Counted from the first letter of the stretch, positions 6,702 to 18,364 are shown. The stretch: DNA of 64,000 nt from Methanococcoides sp. (GCA_021108275.1 JAIORD010000002.1:1-64000), one strand, 5' to 3'. Notes: generated from the letters alone by a model not told the origin. Translations and numbers: made by a program.

Positions 6702-6839
6702 TATCTCTTTTTTGATATTGATATTTTTAATAGCCATAGGTACGAACAGTTTCGAAGTTTAAGCTAAGTTTATACGCAATTGGCAACAATCTTCTTCTTA
6801 CATATCAAAAAAAAATAATTGAACAAAGGTAGTGTCAAG

Positions 6840-9800
6840 ATGAAATATATCGGGGTTAAAAAAAAAGGATTCTGTTTGCTGGTCTTGCTATCGTGCATTC
6901 TGCTGGCAGGATGTATCGGGCAGGACGATAGTAAAGTTCAAACTTCTTCCAATGAAGCTCTCTCCTATGATGAGGGAGGAACTTATTCCGAAGATGATGA
7001 ATATCTAGTGCTTGTACCGAAATCGCTGTTCTCAGGTGGGGAAAGTTCTGTAACGATGTCTGCTTTCCTGGATGATGAACCGGTCAGCAGGGGTGTTGAA
7101 TATACTCTTACCAGTGCATCAGGCGACATCATCCCATTGGTAAAGGCAGCCACCTCCGAATCCGGTAACAATGTAGCGAAGTTCGAAGTACCGGATGTCG
7201 AAGAGGGAAGTTATACACTGACTGCAACACCTTCGGGTGCTGAAAGTGGTTTTACTACAACCGTTAAGGTGGTGCAGAACAATCCCATCTTCATCGAAAC
7301 GGACAAACCTATCTACAAACCCGGGCAGATCATACATGTACGTCTTCTCAGCCTGAACAATAATCTCGTTCCTGTCGTTCAGAACACCACCGTTGAGATA
7401 GCTGATGCGAAAGGGGTGAAGATCTTCAAGGACGACCTTGTTACCAATGAGTATGGGGTTGCCTTCTTTGATCTTCCGCTTGCCTCCGAGCTGAACCTTG
7501 GAACATGGAAAGTGAAAGCGACATCAGGAAGTTCGATGTCCGAAGTGGATATCAGGGTGGAGAAATATGTCCTCCCCAAGTTCGACCTCGATACTTCCAC
7601 CGAAAAGAGCTGGTTCCTTGCCGATGAACCTATTACAGGCACAGTCTCTGCTAACTATTTCTTCGGAAAGGTCGTTGAAGGTACTGTTGAGGTAAAGGCT
7701 TCCAGATACATAGGTGTCTGGGAAGAATACTCGACATCCACTGCTCCTCTTAAGGACGGAAATGTAGAATTTGCACTTCCTGCTGTAGGGTATGTGGCAG
7801 GCACCTTTGGAGCCGGTGGTCAGGGCAGTGTCATGCTGAATGTGACTGTGACCGACACCGGTGGAAATAGTGAAGAAACTACGGAACTGCTCACCATAGC
7901 AGAGCATCCGTTCATATTGCAGATGATTCCGGAATCCAATTCCATCAAACCGGGAATGCCCCTTCAGATTCTTCTTGTAACAAAGGACCCCGGAGGAGAA
8001 CCCCTTGAAAAAGAGGTGACCCTTGTTTCCAATTTCAGAGATGACAGTTACAACTATGACGAGAGCAAAGAGACCTACACAACAGAGAACGGCGTTGCTC
8101 TGGTAATGTTAGAGATACCCGAAGATGCTGTGAGCGTCGAATTGCATGCTGTCTCAGAAGAAGTTGAAGTTACCAGTACATTGAACTCGGTCTATTCTCC
8201 CAGTGCCAGTTTCCTGCACTTGAGCCAGGTGAGCGAAGGCATACCGGAAGTCGGAGATACCATCTCGTTCAAGGTCTATTCAACTAATGTGGGAACGGTA
8301 TTCTACGATGTTTTCGCAAATGGCAGGACAGTTTATTCTGCGACAAGCGACGAGCCGCAGATAAACATCCCTGTGACGCCACAGATGAGCCCGTCGGCAA
8401 AGGTCGTTGCATACATAATAAATCCTAACAATGAGGTTTCCGCCGACAGCCTGCCCTTCGATGTCAAGTTCAGCACGAAGGTAGACCTTTCCACAGGATT
8501 TGATAAGGACACGGTCGCACCGGGTGATGCTGTTTCCGTTGAGCTGGATGCAGGCACGAAGTCCATGATAGGCCTTTCCATTGTGGACGAATCCGTATAT
8601 GCATTGAGCGAGGGTAGACTGAATTTGAAACAGGTGTTCGATGAGCTTGAAATTCGCTTTATGGAACCTCAGGTCGAAGCGCATCCGCAATATTTTGGAT
8701 ATCAGACAACTGCTTATGATGTTCTTGATGAGGCCGGAATGATAGTATTGGCATCCGGCAGTCTTGAAATTCCAAGGACAGAAACTGATGAAGATGTGAG
8801 GTTTGCTCAATTTGCAGGAGCAATGTTTGAAATGGATGATATGGTTGTGGATGAAGCTGTAATGGAGATGTCCATGGAAGAAGCTCCAATGGATGACAAA
8901 GCAGATTCAGGGGAGCAGCTTGCGGAAGTGGAGAGAGTACGCCAGTTCTTCCCTGAAACATGGATCTGGATGCCTGATATTCTGACCGATGATGACGGAA
9001 GGGCAACCCTTGATCTGAATGCACCTGACTCCATCACCAAATGGAGACTTCATGCAGTGTCCTCAGGTCCGGAAGGCATCGGAATATCCGAATCAGGCCT
9101 TACGGTCTTCCAGGATTTCTTTATCGACCCTGATCTGCCTTATGCTGTTATTCGTGGCGAGGAGTTCCCTGTTCAGGTACAGGTGTACAACTATCTCGAC
9201 AAGCCTCAGAACGTGAAGCTGACCCTTTCAGGTGCAGAATGGTTCGAGCTGGTGGGAGATGATGTCGTTGAAGTGAGCGTGGATGCCAATAGTGTGACCC
9301 ATGTAAGTTTCACCATTCGTCCCACCAAGGTCGGGGTGCAGACAGTTGAACTGACAGGACAGACCACTGAAAAAGCGGATGCTATCCGTAAGACGATTAT
9401 CGTTGAGGCTGAAGGGGTCACCAGAGAGATAGTGGATAACGGTATCCTTAAGAACGGTACCGTTGAGCTGGATGCAACACTGCCTGATGCCATAGTACCG
9501 GATTCTGAAAAAGTGATATTGAGCTTTACGCCAAGCATCGTAGCCCAGACGATCAGCGGAGTCGATGACCTGCTGGGCATGCCTTATGGATGTGGTGAAC
9601 AGAACATGATGTTGTTCTCCACCGATGTTGAGGTGCTGCGCTATCTCAAGGCCACCGGTCAGCAGAATCCCGAGGTACAGGCTAAAGCATTGACTTTCAT
9701 CACGACCGGATACCAGAGGGAGCTCACTTTTATGCATTCGGATGGCTCTTTCTCTGCATTCGGTGAGAGTGACGGCGAAGGCAGTCTGTGGCTGACCTCC

Positions 9801-11051
9801 TTTGTGCTTTCCCAGTTCAGTGGTGCCAGGGACCTGACGACCATTGATGAGAATGTTGTAAGGGAAGCAGCGGATTGGATAGGTTCACATCAGAAAGAGG
9901 ATGGTTCATGGGAAGCGGTCGGCTTTGTTATCCATCAGGATATGATGGGAGGTGTGAGCGGTACGTATGCCCTTACGGCCTATGTGACACTTGCACTCGA
10001 TGAATATGGCTATGCTGCTCCGGCTGTTATGGAAAATGCCCGTAGCTATCTGGAAGCAGAACTTGATGAGCAGGACGATCCATACGCCCTTGCCATAGGT
10101 ACTCTTGCTCTTCAAAAGCTTGAAAGTGACAGGGCAGATGAGTCCATGGAAAAACTTATCGAGCTGGCAAAAGAGGACGAAAATGGCGTGTATTGGGGAT
10201 ACGATGATGTCATGCCTGAACCTTACGAATATGGTGGCTATGGCTTCCATCCTATCTCAAGCAAGAACGTTGAAACCACAGCATATGCCACACTTGCGTT
10301 GATAGAAACGAATGACCCAAAGGCAAGCTCATCGTTGAAATGGATAGCAGCCCAGCGTAATTCCAATGGTGGTTTTTCAAGCACACAGGATACTGTCATG
10401 GCCTTCAGAGCATTGATGACGGCAGCAGCGGTTGCCGGAAGGGATGTGGATGCCACTGTTACGGTCAGTGGGGATGGAGTGGAAATCAAGGGCCTTAGGA
10501 TAACTTCCGAGAACTACGATGTTGTGAACATCATTGAAGTTCCGGAAGGCGTTGAAGTTCTTGAGATGGAACTTTCCGGGACCGGTGAGCTGAACTATCA
10601 GCTTGTCAGAAGGTTCAATGTGATCCTGCCTGAAACCATCGAGCACGAACAGATCGAGCTTGATGTTGAGTACGATTCAACAGATGTGGAAGTCGATGAT
10701 GTCGTAAAGGTCGATGTTCGCCTGAAATACAATGGTATGCCTGGTATCAGAGGAGTAGTTGAGTCCAGCGGAATGATGATTGTGGATATTGCAGTACCCA
10801 CAGGTTTCACTCCGGTAGGGTCCAGTCTCGAAGCCCTCAAGGAAGACGGCACTATCACCCGATACGAAATAGCCGGTCGCAAGGTCATCCTTTACATCGA
10901 TGAGATGATGCCCAGTGAAATAATGGAGTTCTCGTTGCAAATGAGGGCAATGTTCCCGGTAAAGGCAATGGTTCAGGAGAGCAGTGCGTATTCATACTAT
11001 GATCCGGAGGTGAAGGCGGAGGTTAAGGGTATGAACGTGACCGTTGTTTGA
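6840..11051 (+). CDS. Alpha-2-macroglobulin family thioester lipoprotein
   Basis: 1403 residues from ATG 6840 (a TTG at 6819 would add seven). A signal peptide ends in lipobox LAGC with lipidated Cys25, so the protein is surface-anchored. The macroglobulin domains include an MG2-like ETDKPIYKPGQ near residue 150. A Met/Glu/Asp-rich stretch (about 610-700) occupies the bait-region position. The thioester motif GCGEQNM has Cys918 and Gln921 intact. It is followed by a helical thioester domain with GYQRELTFMHSDGSFSAFG and GGFSSTQDTV. The C-terminus ends in a receptor-binding-like domain (MMIVDIAVPTGF, then YSYYDPE). Known members trap proteases or bind covalently to targets. No penicillin-binding protein PbpC gene is adjacent, unlike the usual bacterial arrangement. 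It is probably transcribed alone. Confidence 0.93.
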   Translation: MKYIGVKKKGFCLLVLLSCILLAGCIGQDDSKVQTSSNEALSYDEGGTYSEDDEYLVLVPKSLFSGGESSVTMSAFLDDEPVSRGVEYTLTSASGDIIPLVKAATSESGNNVAKFEVPDVEEGSYTLTATPSGAESGFTTTVKVVQNNPIFIETDKPIYKPGQIIHVRLLSLNNNLVPVVQNTTVEIADAKGVKIFKDDLVTNEYGVAFFDLPLASELNLGTWKVKATSGSSMSEVDIRVEKYVLPKFDLDTSTEKSWFLADEPITGTVSANYFFGKVVEGTVEVKASRYIGVWEEYSTSTAPLKDGNVEFALPAVGYVAGTFGAGGQGSVMLNVTVTDTGGNSEETTELLTIAEHPFILQMIPESNSIKPGMPLQILLVTKDPGGEPLEKEVTLVSNFRDDSYNYDESKETYTTENGVALVMLEIPEDAVSVELHAVSEEVEVTSTLNSVYSPSASFLHLSQVSEGIPEVGDTISFKVYSTNVGTVFYDVFANGRTVYSATSDEPQINIPVTPQMSPSAKVVAYIINPNNEVSADSLPFDVKFSTKVDLSTGFDKDTVAPGDAVSVELDAGTKSMIGLSIVDESVYALSEGRLNLKQVFDELEIRFMEPQVEAHPQYFGYQTTAYDVLDEAGMIVLASGSLEIPRTETDEDVRFAQFAGAMFEMDDMVVDEAVMEMSMEEAPMDDKADSGEQLAEVERVRQFFPETWIWMPDILTDDDGRATLDLNAPDSITKWRLHAVSSGPEGIGISESGLTVFQDFFIDPDLPYAVIRGEEFPVQVQVYNYLDKPQNVKLTLSGAEWFELVGDDVVEVSVDANSVTHVSFTIRPTKVGVQTVELTGQTTEKADAIRKTIIVEAEGVTREIVDNGILKNGTVELDATLPDAIVPDSEKVILSFTPSIVAQTISGVDDLLGMPYGCGEQNMMLFSTDVEVLRYLKATGQQNPEVQAKALTFITTGYQRELTFMHSDGSFSAFGESDGEGSLWLTSFVLSQFSGARDLTTIDENVVREAADWIGSHQKEDGSWEAVGFVIHQDMMGGVSGTYALTAYVTLALDEYGYAAPAVMENARSYLEAELDEQDDPYALAIGTLALQKLESDRADESMEKLIELAKEDENGVYWGYDDVMPEPYEYGGYGFHPISSKNVETTAYATLALIETNDPKASSSLKWIAAQRNSNGGFSSTQDTVMAFRALMTAAAVAGRDVDATVTVSGDGVEIKGLRITSENYDVVNIIEVPEGVEVLEMELSGTGELNYQLVRRFNVILPETIEHEQIELDVEYDSTDVEVDDVVKVDVRLKYNGMPGIRGVVESSGMMIVDIAVPTGFTPVGSSLEALKEDGTITRYEIAGRKVILYIDEMMPSEIMEFSLQMRAMFPVKAMVQESSAYSYYDPEVKAEVKGMNVTVV

Positions 11052-13698: not shown

Positions 13699-13887
13699 AT
13701 ACTTGAGATCATGATATACGAAATAATTGACCGTTTATCACAATGGACCAGTTTTAGAGGGCTAATGTGTTAAATATTTGTATTATTTTTTTACTGTCCC
13801 AAATTTAAATGAGCAATATCTGAAATGCAAAAACAAAAATACCAACAAACTGATAAATTCCCCTGCCCAATTCACTGCAGAACAAGA

Positions 13888-16551
13888 ATGATCAAACTAA
13901 CACCTGCAATGAAACAATACTATGATGCGAAGAAGCAATATAGTGATGCACTTATTTTCTTCAGGATGGGGGATTTCTATGAATCCTTCGGAGAGGATGC
14001 AAAGACCATTGCAAAAGAACTTGAGATAACACTTACAACGCGGGGCAAGGACATTGAGGGTGAGAAAATGCCTCTTGCAGGTATTCCCTATCATGCTCTC
14101 GATAATTACCTGCCGCGGTTGGTAAAAAAAGGTTACAAAGTAGCTATCTGTGAGCAGCTTGAAGACCCTAAAAAAGCAAAGGGCATTATCAAGCGTGGGG
14201 TTGTCAGGGTCGTAACGCCCGGTACTGCCATTGATACTTCGATGTTCACGGACCCGTCCAATAATTATCTCATGTCAATTTCAGGTGGAGATGGGGATTA
14301 CGGTGTCTCATTTCTGGATGTTTCCACAGGCGAGTTCCTGACCACACAGTTTGCTGATACGCCTCCTTATGACAGGATAGCCAGTGAGGCTGCACGGATG
14401 CGACCTTCAGAGTGTATAATCTCACGGACGATGTTCTCTGATGAAAGGCTTGTCGGAAGGTTGAAGGAGCTTAATGTGCTGGTACATGAGTTCAAGGATG
14501 AGGCTTTTGACATTGATTCTTCGAGGAAGCTTCTTGAAAGGCATTTCAATGTCTCCACACTCGAAGGAATGGGCTGTGCCGGTCTGCCCTACGCCACATC
14601 TTCTGCAGGAGCTGCACTTGATTATGCGTTCACCACACAGATGAGGGAACTCGGGCATGTAAGTGAGCTGAGCACCTATTCGGATTCTGAGTTCATGATG
14701 CTTGACTCGATCACCCTGAGAAATCTGGAGATAGTCAAGAACGTGCGAGGGGAAGGGAACGATACTTCCATATTGAAGGTGCTCGATGATACCAAAACGC
14801 CGATGGGTGGCAGGTTACTTCAGAAATGGCTTTTGAAGCCCCTCATCAATGTAGATTCTATCGATCACAGGCTGGATGCGCTGGAATGTCTGGCAAATGA
14901 TACCATGCTGAGATTCGATGTCCGTTCTCATCTGTCTTTTGTGAAGGACATAGAACGTCTTATAGGCAGGGTAGTTTATGGTAATTCGAATGCCCGGGAT
15001 CTTATCGCGTTGAAACGTTCCCTGAGTTCAGTGCCGCAGATAGTCGAAAGTATGGGTGATGACCCCGGATGTGAGTTGCTCAGAAATATCAGGGATGGTC
15101 TTCTTGAGTTCGACCAGCTCGAAAATATCGTGAAGCTGATTGACGATGCCATCGTGGATGAGCCTCCTGTAAGTGTGCGGGAAGGGGGCATGATCAGGTC
15201 CGGCTACAATGAGAAACTGGATGAGCTTAAAGGCATGTCCACTGGCGGAAAGACCTGGATCGCTTCGTTCCAGCAGAAGGAACGTGACAGGACAGGTATA
15301 AAATCACTTAAGGTCGGCTACAATAGAGTATTCGGCTACTACATCGAGATCACAAAATCCAATATCGCACAGATACCTGATGATTATATTAGAAAGCAGA
15401 CAATGCGGAATGCTGAAAGGTTCTACACTCCAGAGCTCAAGGAATGGGAAGGTGTCATCCTTTCCGCAGACGAGAAGATAACAGCGCTTGAGAATGAACT
15501 GTTCACTGAGATAACTTCCAGGATCGCTTCCCATGCATCCGATATGCAGAGGGTTGCCGTTCTGATAGGCCAGTTGGATTGTACTGCGAGCCTTGCGGAA
15601 GTTGCGGTGAACAATAATTTTGTAAGACCTAACATAACTTCCGATTGCAAGATATTGATCCGGGAAGGCAGACACCCGGTGGTTGAGAAAACCGTACGTG
15701 GCGGATTCGTGCCCAATGATACGGAAATGGATTGTGTGGACGAACAGTTCCTTTTGATAACAGGGCCTAACATGGCGGGTAAATCCACTTACATGCGTCA
15801 GGTCTCCCTTATCGTGATAATGGCACAGGCAGGTTCTTTTGTTCCGGCTTCCCATGCTTCCATAGGCATTGTGGACAGGGTATTCACAAGGGTTGGTGCT
15901 TTCGATGACCTTGCAAGCGGGCAGAGTACCTTTATGGTGGAGATGGTGGAGCTTGCCAATATACTGAACAATGCGACCCCGAAGAGCCTTGTGCTCCTTG
16001 ATGAGATCGGCAGGGGTACGAGCACTTATGATGGTTATAGTATCGCAAAGGCTGTGGTCGAGTATATCCACAATAAGGGCAGGGTAGGCGTACGCTCCCT
16101 TTTTGCTACCCATTACCATCAGCTTACGAACATCTCTTCCAGCTTGAAAAGGGTGAAGAACTATCATATCGCGGTAAAGGAAGATGGCGATGATCTTGTA
16201 TTCCTCCGAAAGATCGTTCCCGGTGCCACCGATAAGAGCTATGGTATCCATGTTGCAAGGCTTGCAGGTGTGCCGCACAAGGTGACACAGAGAGCCAGAG
16301 AGGTCCTGCAGGATATTGAAGATGAAAGTGCCATCAGCAAGGAAAGCGATTCGAAGAGGGGTAGGAAAAAGAAGTCGGCACAGTACACCCAGTTGATGCT
16401 TTTCGATCCGGATGGCTCTTCTGCACCTGTGGCTGAGCCCGATCCTGTTGTTGAGGAGCTGAAAGAGCTTGATGTCAATAGTATGACTCCCATCGAGGCA
16501 CTGAACAAGTTAAGTGAATTGCAGAAAAAGGCAGGTCTGGGCGGAAAATAA
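13888..16551 (+). CDS. mutS: DNA mismatch repair protein MutS
   Basis: 887 residues from ATG 13888; an earlier ATG at 13825 would add 21 atypical residues. The mismatch-binding Phe-X-Glu motif is present (MGDFYESFG near the N-terminus). The connector, lever and clamp domains follow in the normal order. Walker A GPNMAGKST lies at residues 626-634, with the family motifs DDLASGQSTFMVEM and LLDEIGRGTSTYDG after it. The protein recognises mispairs and recruits MutL. mutL begins one base after the stop, so they are one operon. MutS/MutL are absent from most hyperthermophilic archaea and are thought to have reached mesophilic methanogens by transfer from bacteria. Confidence 0.97.
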   Translation: MIKLTPAMKQYYDAKKQYSDALIFFRMGDFYESFGEDAKTIAKELEITLTTRGKDIEGEKMPLAGIPYHALDNYLPRLVKKGYKVAICEQLEDPKKAKGIIKRGVVRVVTPGTAIDTSMFTDPSNNYLMSISGGDGDYGVSFLDVSTGEFLTTQFADTPPYDRIASEAARMRPSECIISRTMFSDERLVGRLKELNVLVHEFKDEAFDIDSSRKLLERHFNVSTLEGMGCAGLPYATSSAGAALDYAFTTQMRELGHVSELSTYSDSEFMMLDSITLRNLEIVKNVRGEGNDTSILKVLDDTKTPMGGRLLQKWLLKPLINVDSIDHRLDALECLANDTMLRFDVRSHLSFVKDIERLIGRVVYGNSNARDLIALKRSLSSVPQIVESMGDDPGCELLRNIRDGLLEFDQLENIVKLIDDAIVDEPPVSVREGGMIRSGYNEKLDELKGMSTGGKTWIASFQQKERDRTGIKSLKVGYNRVFGYYIEITKSNIAQIPDDYIRKQTMRNAERFYTPELKEWEGVILSADEKITALENELFTEITSRIASHASDMQRVAVLIGQLDCTASLAEVAVNNNFVRPNITSDCKILIREGRHPVVEKTVRGGFVPNDTEMDCVDEQFLLITGPNMAGKSTYMRQVSLIVIMAQAGSFVPASHASIGIVDRVFTRVGAFDDLASGQSTFMVEMVELANILNNATPKSLVLLDEIGRGTSTYDGYSIAKAVVEYIHNKGRVGVRSLFATHYHQLTNISSSLKRVKNYHIAVKEDGDDLVFLRKIVPGATDKSYGIHVARLAGVPHKVTQRAREVLQDIEDESAISKESDSKRGRKKKSAQYTQLMLFDPDGSSAPVAEPDPVVEELKELDVNSMTPIEALNKLSELQKKAGLGGK

Positions 16552-16552
16552 G

Positions 16553-18364
16553 ATGAGCGAGGATAAGGGCGGTAAGATACGTGTTCTTGATGAGGCGACT
16601 ATCAATAAGATAGCAGCAGGCGAGGTCATCGAGCGTCCTGCTTCGGTAGTCAAGGAACTTGTGGACAATGCTATAGATGCAGGGGCTACTGAAATTCGGG
16701 TCGAGGTGGTGGCTGCCGGAACCGAGCTGATCACTGTTACCGATAATGGAAGTGGAATGCCCCGTGAGGATGCGATTCTTGCTTTTACGAAACATGCTAC
16801 CAGTAAGATAATTCAAATAGAGGATCTTGAGGAGGTCCTGACCCTCGGGTTCAGAGGTGAGGCTCTTTCCTCCATTGCAGCGGTGGCCAAGGTATATCTG
16901 ACCACCAGACAAAAGGAGGAGATTGCTGGCACAAAGGTCGTTATAAGCGGAGGGTCGGTGGAGAATGTGGTGGAAGTGGGCGCTGCTCCGGGTACAAGCA
17001 TCTCTGTGGAATCCCTTTTTTACAACACCCCGGCAAGGAAGAAGTATCTCAAAAGTCTGCGAACAGAGCTTGCACACATAACCGATATTGTCACAAGGCA
17101 TGCATTCGGGCATTCTGATATCTCTTTTACTCTGATCAGTGATGGCAAGGTCCTTGTACGTTCTCCGACATCCGGCAATGTTCTCGATAGTATCATCCAT
17201 CTTCTTGGGGTCGATATTGCAAAGAAGATAGTTCCTGTGGAGTTCAGGTCGGATATTGTGAACATCTCAGGTTATATCTCCAAACCGGAAGTTACCCGTA
17301 GCGGCACTGACCAGCAGTTCTTTTTCATAAATGGCAGAGGTGTATCCTCAACGAGCATAAGTAATGCTCTGAGGCTTGGATATTACAACCTCATTCCGAA
17401 AGGGCGTTATCCGGTCGCAGTTCTTGATCTGGAACTTGATCTGCGTGAGGTAGATGTCAATGTGCATCCTGCAAAAAGGTATGTGAGACTCAGCCATGAA
17501 CGTGAGGTCTCTGATGCGGTCATTCTTGCTGTTGAGAACGCTTTGAAGGGGGACGATCTGTTCCCAAAGGTCTCTTTGCCGGAAAACAAACCGGTACAGG
17601 CTGTTTTCAGTGATAAGAGCAAGACCGGTACTGAAGTAATGTCTTCTGCGATTGAAAGTGTGAGCGTACCGGTAGCAAAGGAAGCGGATGAGCCTTATCA
17701 TGCCAGTGCAAGGGATACTGAAAAGCGTTTGAAACGCTCGGAAAGGGTACTTTCAAAGACAGAAAAGAAGCCCGAAAGAGTAGCTACTGGTCTTGATAAG
17801 GCGAGGATAGTAGGGCAGGTAAGTGAGCTTTACATTATTGTGGAGCTTGAGGACGGGCTTATGATAGTCGATCAGCATGCTGCACATGAGAGGGTGATGT
17901 ATGAACAGATACGGGATGGCAACAGTTCTGGGTGGCAGGAGCTTATCACTCCTGTGATGCTGGATCTCACATCTAAGGAAAAGGTGCTTTTGGATGAGTA
18001 TATCCCCCTCCTTGAAGAGATGGGATTTGCGATATCCGAATTCGGTCCTAACAGTTATGTGGTGACATCGATCCCTTCCCTTCTTGGAAAACTGGAGAAC
18101 ACCGAACTGATCCATGACATCATCATGGATGTGCTTTCCAGTGGCAAGGTGAAGAGGGATACAGGTATGTTCGATAGTCTCTGCAAGACCATGGCATGCC
18201 GTGCAGCTATAAAGGCAGGAGCAGGCTGCAGCATGGAGCAGATGGAGAACCTGCTCAGGCAGCTGGACATGGCTGAGAATCCATACACATGTCCTCATGG
18301 GCGTCCGACGGTGATATCTTTTACAAAAGGTGAACTTGACAAATTGTTCAAGAGGACAGGATGA
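16553..18364 (+). CDS. mutL: DNA mismatch repair endonuclease MutL
   Basis: 603 residues from ATG 16553, which directly follows the mutS stop. The GHKL ATPase motifs are clear: ELVDNAIDAGATE (Mg-binding Asn), DNGSGM, GFRGEALSS. The C-terminal dimerisation domain holds DQHAAHERVMYE, matching the metal-binding endonuclease motif DQHA(X)2E(X)4E, and a zinc-site CPHGRP near the end. It is therefore the nicking type of MutL used by organisms without MutH. A low-conservation linker (about residues 345-410) separates the domains. Confidence 0.97.
   Translation: MSEDKGGKIRVLDEATINKIAAGEVIERPASVVKELVDNAIDAGATEIRVEVVAAGTELITVTDNGSGMPREDAILAFTKHATSKIIQIEDLEEVLTLGFRGEALSSIAAVAKVYLTTRQKEEIAGTKVVISGGSVENVVEVGAAPGTSISVESLFYNTPARKKYLKSLRTELAHITDIVTRHAFGHSDISFTLISDGKVLVRSPTSGNVLDSIIHLLGVDIAKKIVPVEFRSDIVNISGYISKPEVTRSGTDQQFFFINGRGVSSTSISNALRLGYYNLIPKGRYPVAVLDLELDLREVDVNVHPAKRYVRLSHEREVSDAVILAVENALKGDDLFPKVSLPENKPVQAVFSDKSKTGTEVMSSAIESVSVPVAKEADEPYHASARDTEKRLKRSERVLSKTEKKPERVATGLDKARIVGQVSELYIIVELEDGLMIVDQHAAHERVMYEQIRDGNSSGWQELITPVMLDLTSKEKVLLDEYIPLLEEMGFAISEFGPNSYVVTSIPSLLGKLENTELIHDIIMDVLSSGKVKRDTGMFDSLCKTMACRAAIKAGAGCSMEQMENLLRQLDMAENPYTCPHGRPTVISFTKGELDKLFKRTG

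Follow-up and report, generated by a model that had tools for sequence, protein, structure and literature searches.

An animal-type alpha-2-macroglobulin in Methanococcoides and related archaea, a proposed surface protease trap

Alpha-2-macroglobulins (A2Ms) include an animal type, such as the human protease trap A2M, and a bacterial type represented by YfhM of Escherichia coli. We analysed a 64,000-nucleotide stretch of DNA from Methanococcoides sp. (GCA_021108275.1, JAIORD010000002.1:1-64000; hereafter the window) and found that a plus-strand gene within it encodes a real, well-conserved, animal-type A2M of archaea. The 1403-residue protein is the only A2M in its genome; its gene runs from an ATG at 6840 through the stop codon ending at 11051, and a TTG at 6819 is in the same frame. 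The original prediction, made from the sequence, was that the protein is more animal-like than bacterial, and this is supported by domain content, sequence scores against the PDB, predicted folds and trees. Here "animal-like" denotes the same architectural type; the gene is not an animal gene and not a sister of the animal genes. We consider it likely that the protein is a membrane-anchored, probably monomeric surface trap that captures foreign proteases covalently.

A Pfam profile search, in which all listed domains scored above the curated cut-offs, revealed the order MG2, MG3, MG4, A2M_BRD, A2M, TED (the thioester domain) and A2M_recep, which is the animal-type set (E-values of 1e-18, 3e-10, 2e-7, 3e-23, 1e-28, 1e-78 and 3e-16, respectively). 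The C-terminal receptor-binding-like domain that had been anticipated is thus present, scoring 60.3 bits where the cut-off is 21.7. None of the bacterial families bMG1, bMG2, bMG5, bMG6 and bMG10 matched the window protein at E<=0.1. Searched likewise, E. coli YfhM returned bMG1, bMG2, bMG3, bMG5, bMG6 and bMG10, none of which the window protein has, and its TED scored only 33 bits compared with 265 in the window protein. Pfam gave no match to anaphylatoxin or C345c/NTR domains, and the chain ends after the receptor-binding domain; NCBIfam contained no model for the protein, returning weak cyclase matches only. When phmmer was run against the PDB, the window protein matched human A2M at 415 bits, A2ML1 at 385, CD109 at 365, TEP1 at 287 and C3 at 261, and YfhM matched human A2M at only 28 bits. 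Across Chloroflexota and the phylum of genome G462, TED scores fell into two clear classes with two intermediates between them. The window protein belongs to the class scoring about 260-310 bits, whose proteins are mostly near 1400 residues, and the other class, of generally longer proteins, scored mostly 20-65 bits.

The thioester motif GCGEQNM occupies residues 917-923 and is invariant across the clade; Cys918 and Gln921 lie exactly where an intact thioester had been proposed. Both of the thioester-domain phrases previously singled out, GYQRELTFMHSDGSFSAFG (from residue 957) and GGFSSTQDTV (from residue 1177), are also present. Downstream, His1032 aligns with His1084 of A2ML1, which confers hydroxyl reactivity on the thioester, as in C3 and C4B (PMC7864068). 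An equivalent histidine was found in all aligned archaeal members and nearly all Chloroflexota ones, and in alignments of the YfhM types this segment is missing or unrelated. On this basis, His1032 should broaden the chemistry of the predicted thioester from amines to hydroxyls, whether of proteins or of glycans.

The position of the animal bait, between the bait-region domain and an FFPETW motif, is taken by an acidic, methionine-rich stretch (about residues 640-692). Its earlier description as bait-like agrees with its position, lowest conservation and predicted disorder, and in sequence and model it appears as a bait should. Identity within this core was 49, 25 and 20% over the near, family and order ranges, compared with 90, 76 and 64% for the TED, making the bait the least conserved part of the chain except for a short N-terminal linker, and it was disordered in both structural models (predicted local distance difference test, pLDDT, <50). 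The TED is under strong purifying selection, with a ratio of nonsynonymous to synonymous substitution rates (dN/dS) of about 0.06; for the bait the ratio was 0.75-0.80 in two of three near-relative pairs and 0.22 in the third. A consistently fast-evolving bait was dropped as a description, because dN/dS was not uniform across pairs. In A2ML1, the bait C-terminus (Arg730-Pro734) plugs a channel formed in part by Tyr214-Pro217 of the MG2-MG3 linker; cleavage of the bait frees the plug (PMC9156758). The window protein carries counterparts of both, RQFFP and YVLP, the latter being present in archaea and Chloroflexota; regular-expression searches found neither the YVLP channel motif nor an RxYFP/RxFFP plug motif in the YfhM types tested.

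Structure prediction with AlphaFold2 was performed on two halves of the protein, and the resulting models matched animal A2ML1 and CD109 and complement chains. The model of residues 600-1403 (pLDDT 74) aligned with native A2ML1, CD109 and A2M at template modelling (TM) scores of 0.68-0.70; native C3 and C5 also matched, and C3b forms gave TM 0.31-0.33. The model of residues 25-708 (pLDDT 77) gave its best matches, with TM about 0.7, to complement beta chains. No YfhM entry appeared among the 50 matches listed for either half-model, though YfhM structures exist.

We constructed phylogenetic trees in which the animals were represented by three sequences, all human and on long branches. In a 70-row tree with YfhM types as the outgroup, the GCGEQNM group, containing archaea, Chloroflexota and others and the three human proteins, formed a single clade (support 99); the YfhM types (97) lay outside it, as did an intermediate pair with the thioester GCFEQTSS. 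A 39-row tree likewise split the animal-type group from the intermediate group (100/100), separated the main archaeal clade (92/87) and placed the human proteins on the Chloroflexota side (100/99). The window protein fell outside the YfhM clade in both trees. The human proteins formed one clade (100/100), and a clade of animals plus main archaea was rejected (p 0.0086). Grouping every prokaryotic member into one clade that excludes the animals gave p 0.023 with 39 rows, and 0.07 and 0.15 with fewer rows. Animals may be nested among the prokaryotes, a placement that is not robust (p 0.02-0.15); it was significant in the 39-row tree, lost significance with fewer rows, and is not claimed here.

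The gene was found in the window genome and in all 10 sampled congeners, and also in Methanolobus (66-68% identical to the window protein), Methanomethylovorans, ANME-2 and Methanoperedens, with a patchy occurrence elsewhere in the phylum; within the family, almost every matching genome has just one TED protein listed. Describing it as an A2M in a methanogen was therefore correct as to its presence but understated its range, as the gene occurs across Methanosarcinales, ANME-2 and Methanoperedens among them. Its retention in the window genome and all sampled congeners, with conserved neighbours, indicates that it is maintained. The upstream ABC-2 transporter genes are shared as far as one genome from a second family (L059); the downstream side holds mutS/mutL in Methanococcoides and in part of Methanolobus. 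This shared synteny points to long inheritance within the order, with losses, so that the gene is probably old within Methanosarcinales.

The closest relatives are found in other Methanosarcinales, followed by Altiarchaeales; outside archaea, the closest are Chloroflexota and Actinomycetota proteins of the same larger clade. When 84,980 species genomes were scanned, unexpected relatives appeared in Dehalococcoidia, Anaerolineae, SAR202 and Actinomycetota, in a single-cell genome of Altiarchaeales and in a bin that bears the title Deltaproteobacteria and is assigned to Myxococcota by the tree tool. Genome hits numbered 171 in all. The Dehalococcoidia, Anaerolineae and Actinomycetota proteins (L070-L119) share the length and thioester of the window protein and, in nearly all, the histidine; the one scanned with Pfam, L070, has the same domain set. 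They are 44-47% identical to the archaeal protein over the C-terminal part and lie separate from the main archaeal clade. The Altiarchaeales protein (L148, Candidatus Altiarchaeales WOR_SM1_SCG) branches basally in the Methanosarcinales clade, which may reflect transfer or contamination. In one archaeal bin (L069), a contig of 5.6 kb carries a copy resembling those of Chloroflexota, which may be a binning error. Searching viral contigs with patterns from the single protein revealed no relative, and plasmids yielded only distant Deinococcus and Meiothermus proteins at 23-26% identity. The two plasmid loci read (L150 and L151, from Meiothermus and Deinococcus) encode YfhM-like A2Ms, each preceded by a DUF1175 gene and followed by a gene for a hypothetical protein. 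An intermediate-type A2M with GCFEQTSS from Chloroflexota (L218:121-5097, genome G682) carries six hydrophobic, transmembrane-like segments at the expected bait site (residues about 688-871) that its relative L219 lacks. Genomes G139 and G121, from the phylum of the window genome, encode another A2M type (L230, L231; PHGCPEQT, about 1700 residues) that the tree places well away from the window protein.

By inspection, the protein begins with a basic, hydrophobic leader followed by a lipobox, L21-L-A-G-C25, as predicted when it was first called a lipoprotein; this leader is its single hydrophobic segment, and most relatives retain the lipobox. We infer that the protein is lipid-anchored at the archaeal cell surface. 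Human A2ML1 and CD109, both monomeric (PDB 7q1y, 8s3o), share with it the MG ring, bait position, GCGEQNM, catalytic histidine, plug and channel motifs and C-terminal receptor-binding/MG8 domain, and are its best C-terminal fold matches, although identity in the structure alignment is only about 28-29%. A2ML1 is secreted, and CD109 is held by a glycosylphosphatidylinositol anchor; the window protein differs in its predicted lipoprotein-type anchor, its acidic, methionine-rich bait and its archaeal host.

We favour a surface-tethered covalent trap with broadened chemistry because the plug and channel motifs are kept, the bait is hypervariable and disordered, and His1032 is present. In such a trap, the ring of MG domains would hold the disordered bait, ending in the RQFFP plug and threaded near the YVLP channel. 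Cutting of the bait by a protease would free the plug and cause a change of shape that exposes a Cys918-Gln921 thioester; Gln921 would then bond covalently to the attacking protease, with His1032 extending the chemistry from amines to hydroxyls. The targets would most likely be secreted proteases of neighbouring microbes. Several points weigh against this proposal: the catalytic histidine also fits complement-like deposition, a high dN/dS of the bait is seen in just two of three near-relative pairs and a low one in a sister group, and the half-models were built separately and with moderate confidence (pLDDT 74-77; predicted TM-score 0.60-0.65).

An alternative that we regard as rather unlikely is an opsonin or adhesin resembling complement or TEP, in which cutting of the bait by an own or foreign protease would lead to deposition through ester bonds to glycans, whether on neighbouring cells, on viruses or on the S-layer, instead of capture of the protease. 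This would suit a histidine that underlies glycan reactivity in C3 and C4B, the match of the N-terminal model to complement beta chains and a CD109-like tethering at the surface. However, A2ML1 has the same histidine and is a protease inhibitor (PMC7864068), a tethered protein is ill suited to coating other cells, and the anaphylatoxin and C345c/NTR domains of C3, C4 and C5 were not found by Pfam. A housekeeping role at the predicted cell-surface site, with the thioester serving, for example, in S-layer anchoring or cross-linking, seems very unlikely, as it leaves the hypervariable bait and the conserved plug and channel motifs unexplained.

Two further alternatives, concerning origin, appear barely credible. 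An ordinary YfhM-type A2M acquired from bacteria would accord with the view of the Methanolobus homolog as bacterial-related and transferred (PMC8416519), and related proteins do occur in Chloroflexota. YfhM (ECAM) and Salmonella A2M also resemble the window protein as predicted lipoproteins with a CxEQ thioester, a bait region and MG domains. Nevertheless, YfhM has extra N-terminal MG domains, bMG families, a GCLEQT context and pbpC alongside, whereas the window protein is 250 residues shorter, lacks bMG domains, has the catalytic histidine and falls outside the YfhM group at 97; its bacterial kin are themselves animal-type. Transfer from an animal, for which the strong resemblance of the protein to human A2M, A2ML1 and CD109 might be cited, is at odds with the single clade of the three animal proteins, the rejected union of animals and main archaea, archaeal branching that tracks family groups with shared synteny, and the wide radiation in free-living Chloroflexota.

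Features of the gene are collected in Table 1. Its neighbours encode an FMN reductase, an ABC-2 transporter, a small membrane protein, a BCCT-like transporter and MutS/MutL, and DNA repeats near it are only short, imperfect and unremarkable. No protein with the PF00912 transglycosylase domain was found in the whole genome, extending to the genome the earlier remark that no PbpC gene is nearby. The Pfam-confirmed mutS and mutL genes of this methanogen are adjacent, at 13825-18364 of the window, downstream of the A2M gene.

Table 1. Positions of the A2M gene and its predicted features in the window
Feature	Position	Strand	Basis
A2M-family lipoprotein gene (1403 residues)	6840..11051	+	Open reading frame, Pfam
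Signal peptide and lipobox LLAG/C, residues 1-25, predicted lipid anchor Cys25	6840..6914	+	Sequence
MG1, residues 53-147, boundary inferred	6996..7280	+	Alignment to human A2M from residue 52; N-terminal fold model
MG2, residues 150-240	7287..7559	+	Pfam PF01835, 67.8 bits
MG3, residues 242-310	7563..7769	+	Pfam PF17791, 40.9 bits
YVLP, residues 243-246, MG2-MG3 linker channel motif (A2ML1 Tyr214-Pro217)	7566..7577	+	Sequence
MG4, residues 367-441	7938..8162	+	Pfam PF17789, 31.4 bits
A2M_BRD bait region domain, residues 463-589 (MG5/first part of MG6)	8226..8606	+	Pfam PF07703, 82.9 bits
Linker and bait region, residues 604-696	8649..8927	+	Identity, pLDDT, dN/dS
Hypervariable bait core, residues 640-692	8757-8915	+	Low identity, pLDDT <50
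RQFFP, residues 701-705, bait C-terminal plug (A2ML1 Arg730-Pro734)	8940..8954	+	Sequence
A2M/MG7, residues 707-796	8958..9227	+	Pfam PF00207, 99 bits
TED thioester domain, residues 901-1193	9540..10418	+	Pfam PF07678, 265 bits
Thioester Cys918-Gly-Glu-Gln921	9591..9602	+	Sequence
His1032, counterpart of A2ML1/C3/C4B hydroxyl-reactivity histidine	9933..9935	+	Alignment
Receptor-binding/MG8, residues 1308-1394	10761..11021	+	Pfam PF07677, 60.3 bits

Archaeal proteins with CxEQ thioester domains were already reported in 2021, including a Methanolobus psychrophilus member that was seen as closely related to bacterial A2Ms and gained by transfer (PMC8416519). Given the identity of Methanolobus genes to the window protein and the single TED protein in nearly all matching genomes of this family, that member (WP_015053894.1) very probably belongs to the same orthologous family. 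We agree that close bacterial relatives exist, but they are of the Chloroflexota type with an animal-like architecture, not of the E. coli type, and we place the archaeal A2Ms with the animal type, as an old family within Methanosarcinales, rather than as bacterial-like. The literature searched yielded no paper dealing with animal-type A2Ms of Dehalococcoidia, Anaerolineae or Actinomycetota, which is not proof of absence. The present analysis adds a corrected placement and a testable prediction of chemistry for a known kind of archaeal A2M.

The two bacterial A2M structures have been described as quite distinct from the animal ones, and an animal origin has been proposed for them (PMC9156758). 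Acquisition of prokaryotic A2Ms from animal hosts is still maintained in reviews, as a hypothesis that is not definitive (PMC13069473). We tentatively raise the possibility that animal A2M, TEP and complement proteins descend instead from a prokaryotic animal-type lineage, Chloroflexota-like or archaeal, with the methanogen protein as a living outgroup already equipped with a C3-like catalytic histidine; if true, this would reverse the published view, in which bacteria acquired A2M from animals. The diversity of the animal-type family among anaerobes that live freely (methanogens, ANME-2, Methanoperedens and Dehalococcoidia) offers an outgroup with which the origin of A2M and complement becomes testable. 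Cultivable Methanococcoides and Methanolobus would also provide a simple system for studying what a thioester trap does on a cell that has an S-layer but no sealed periplasm.
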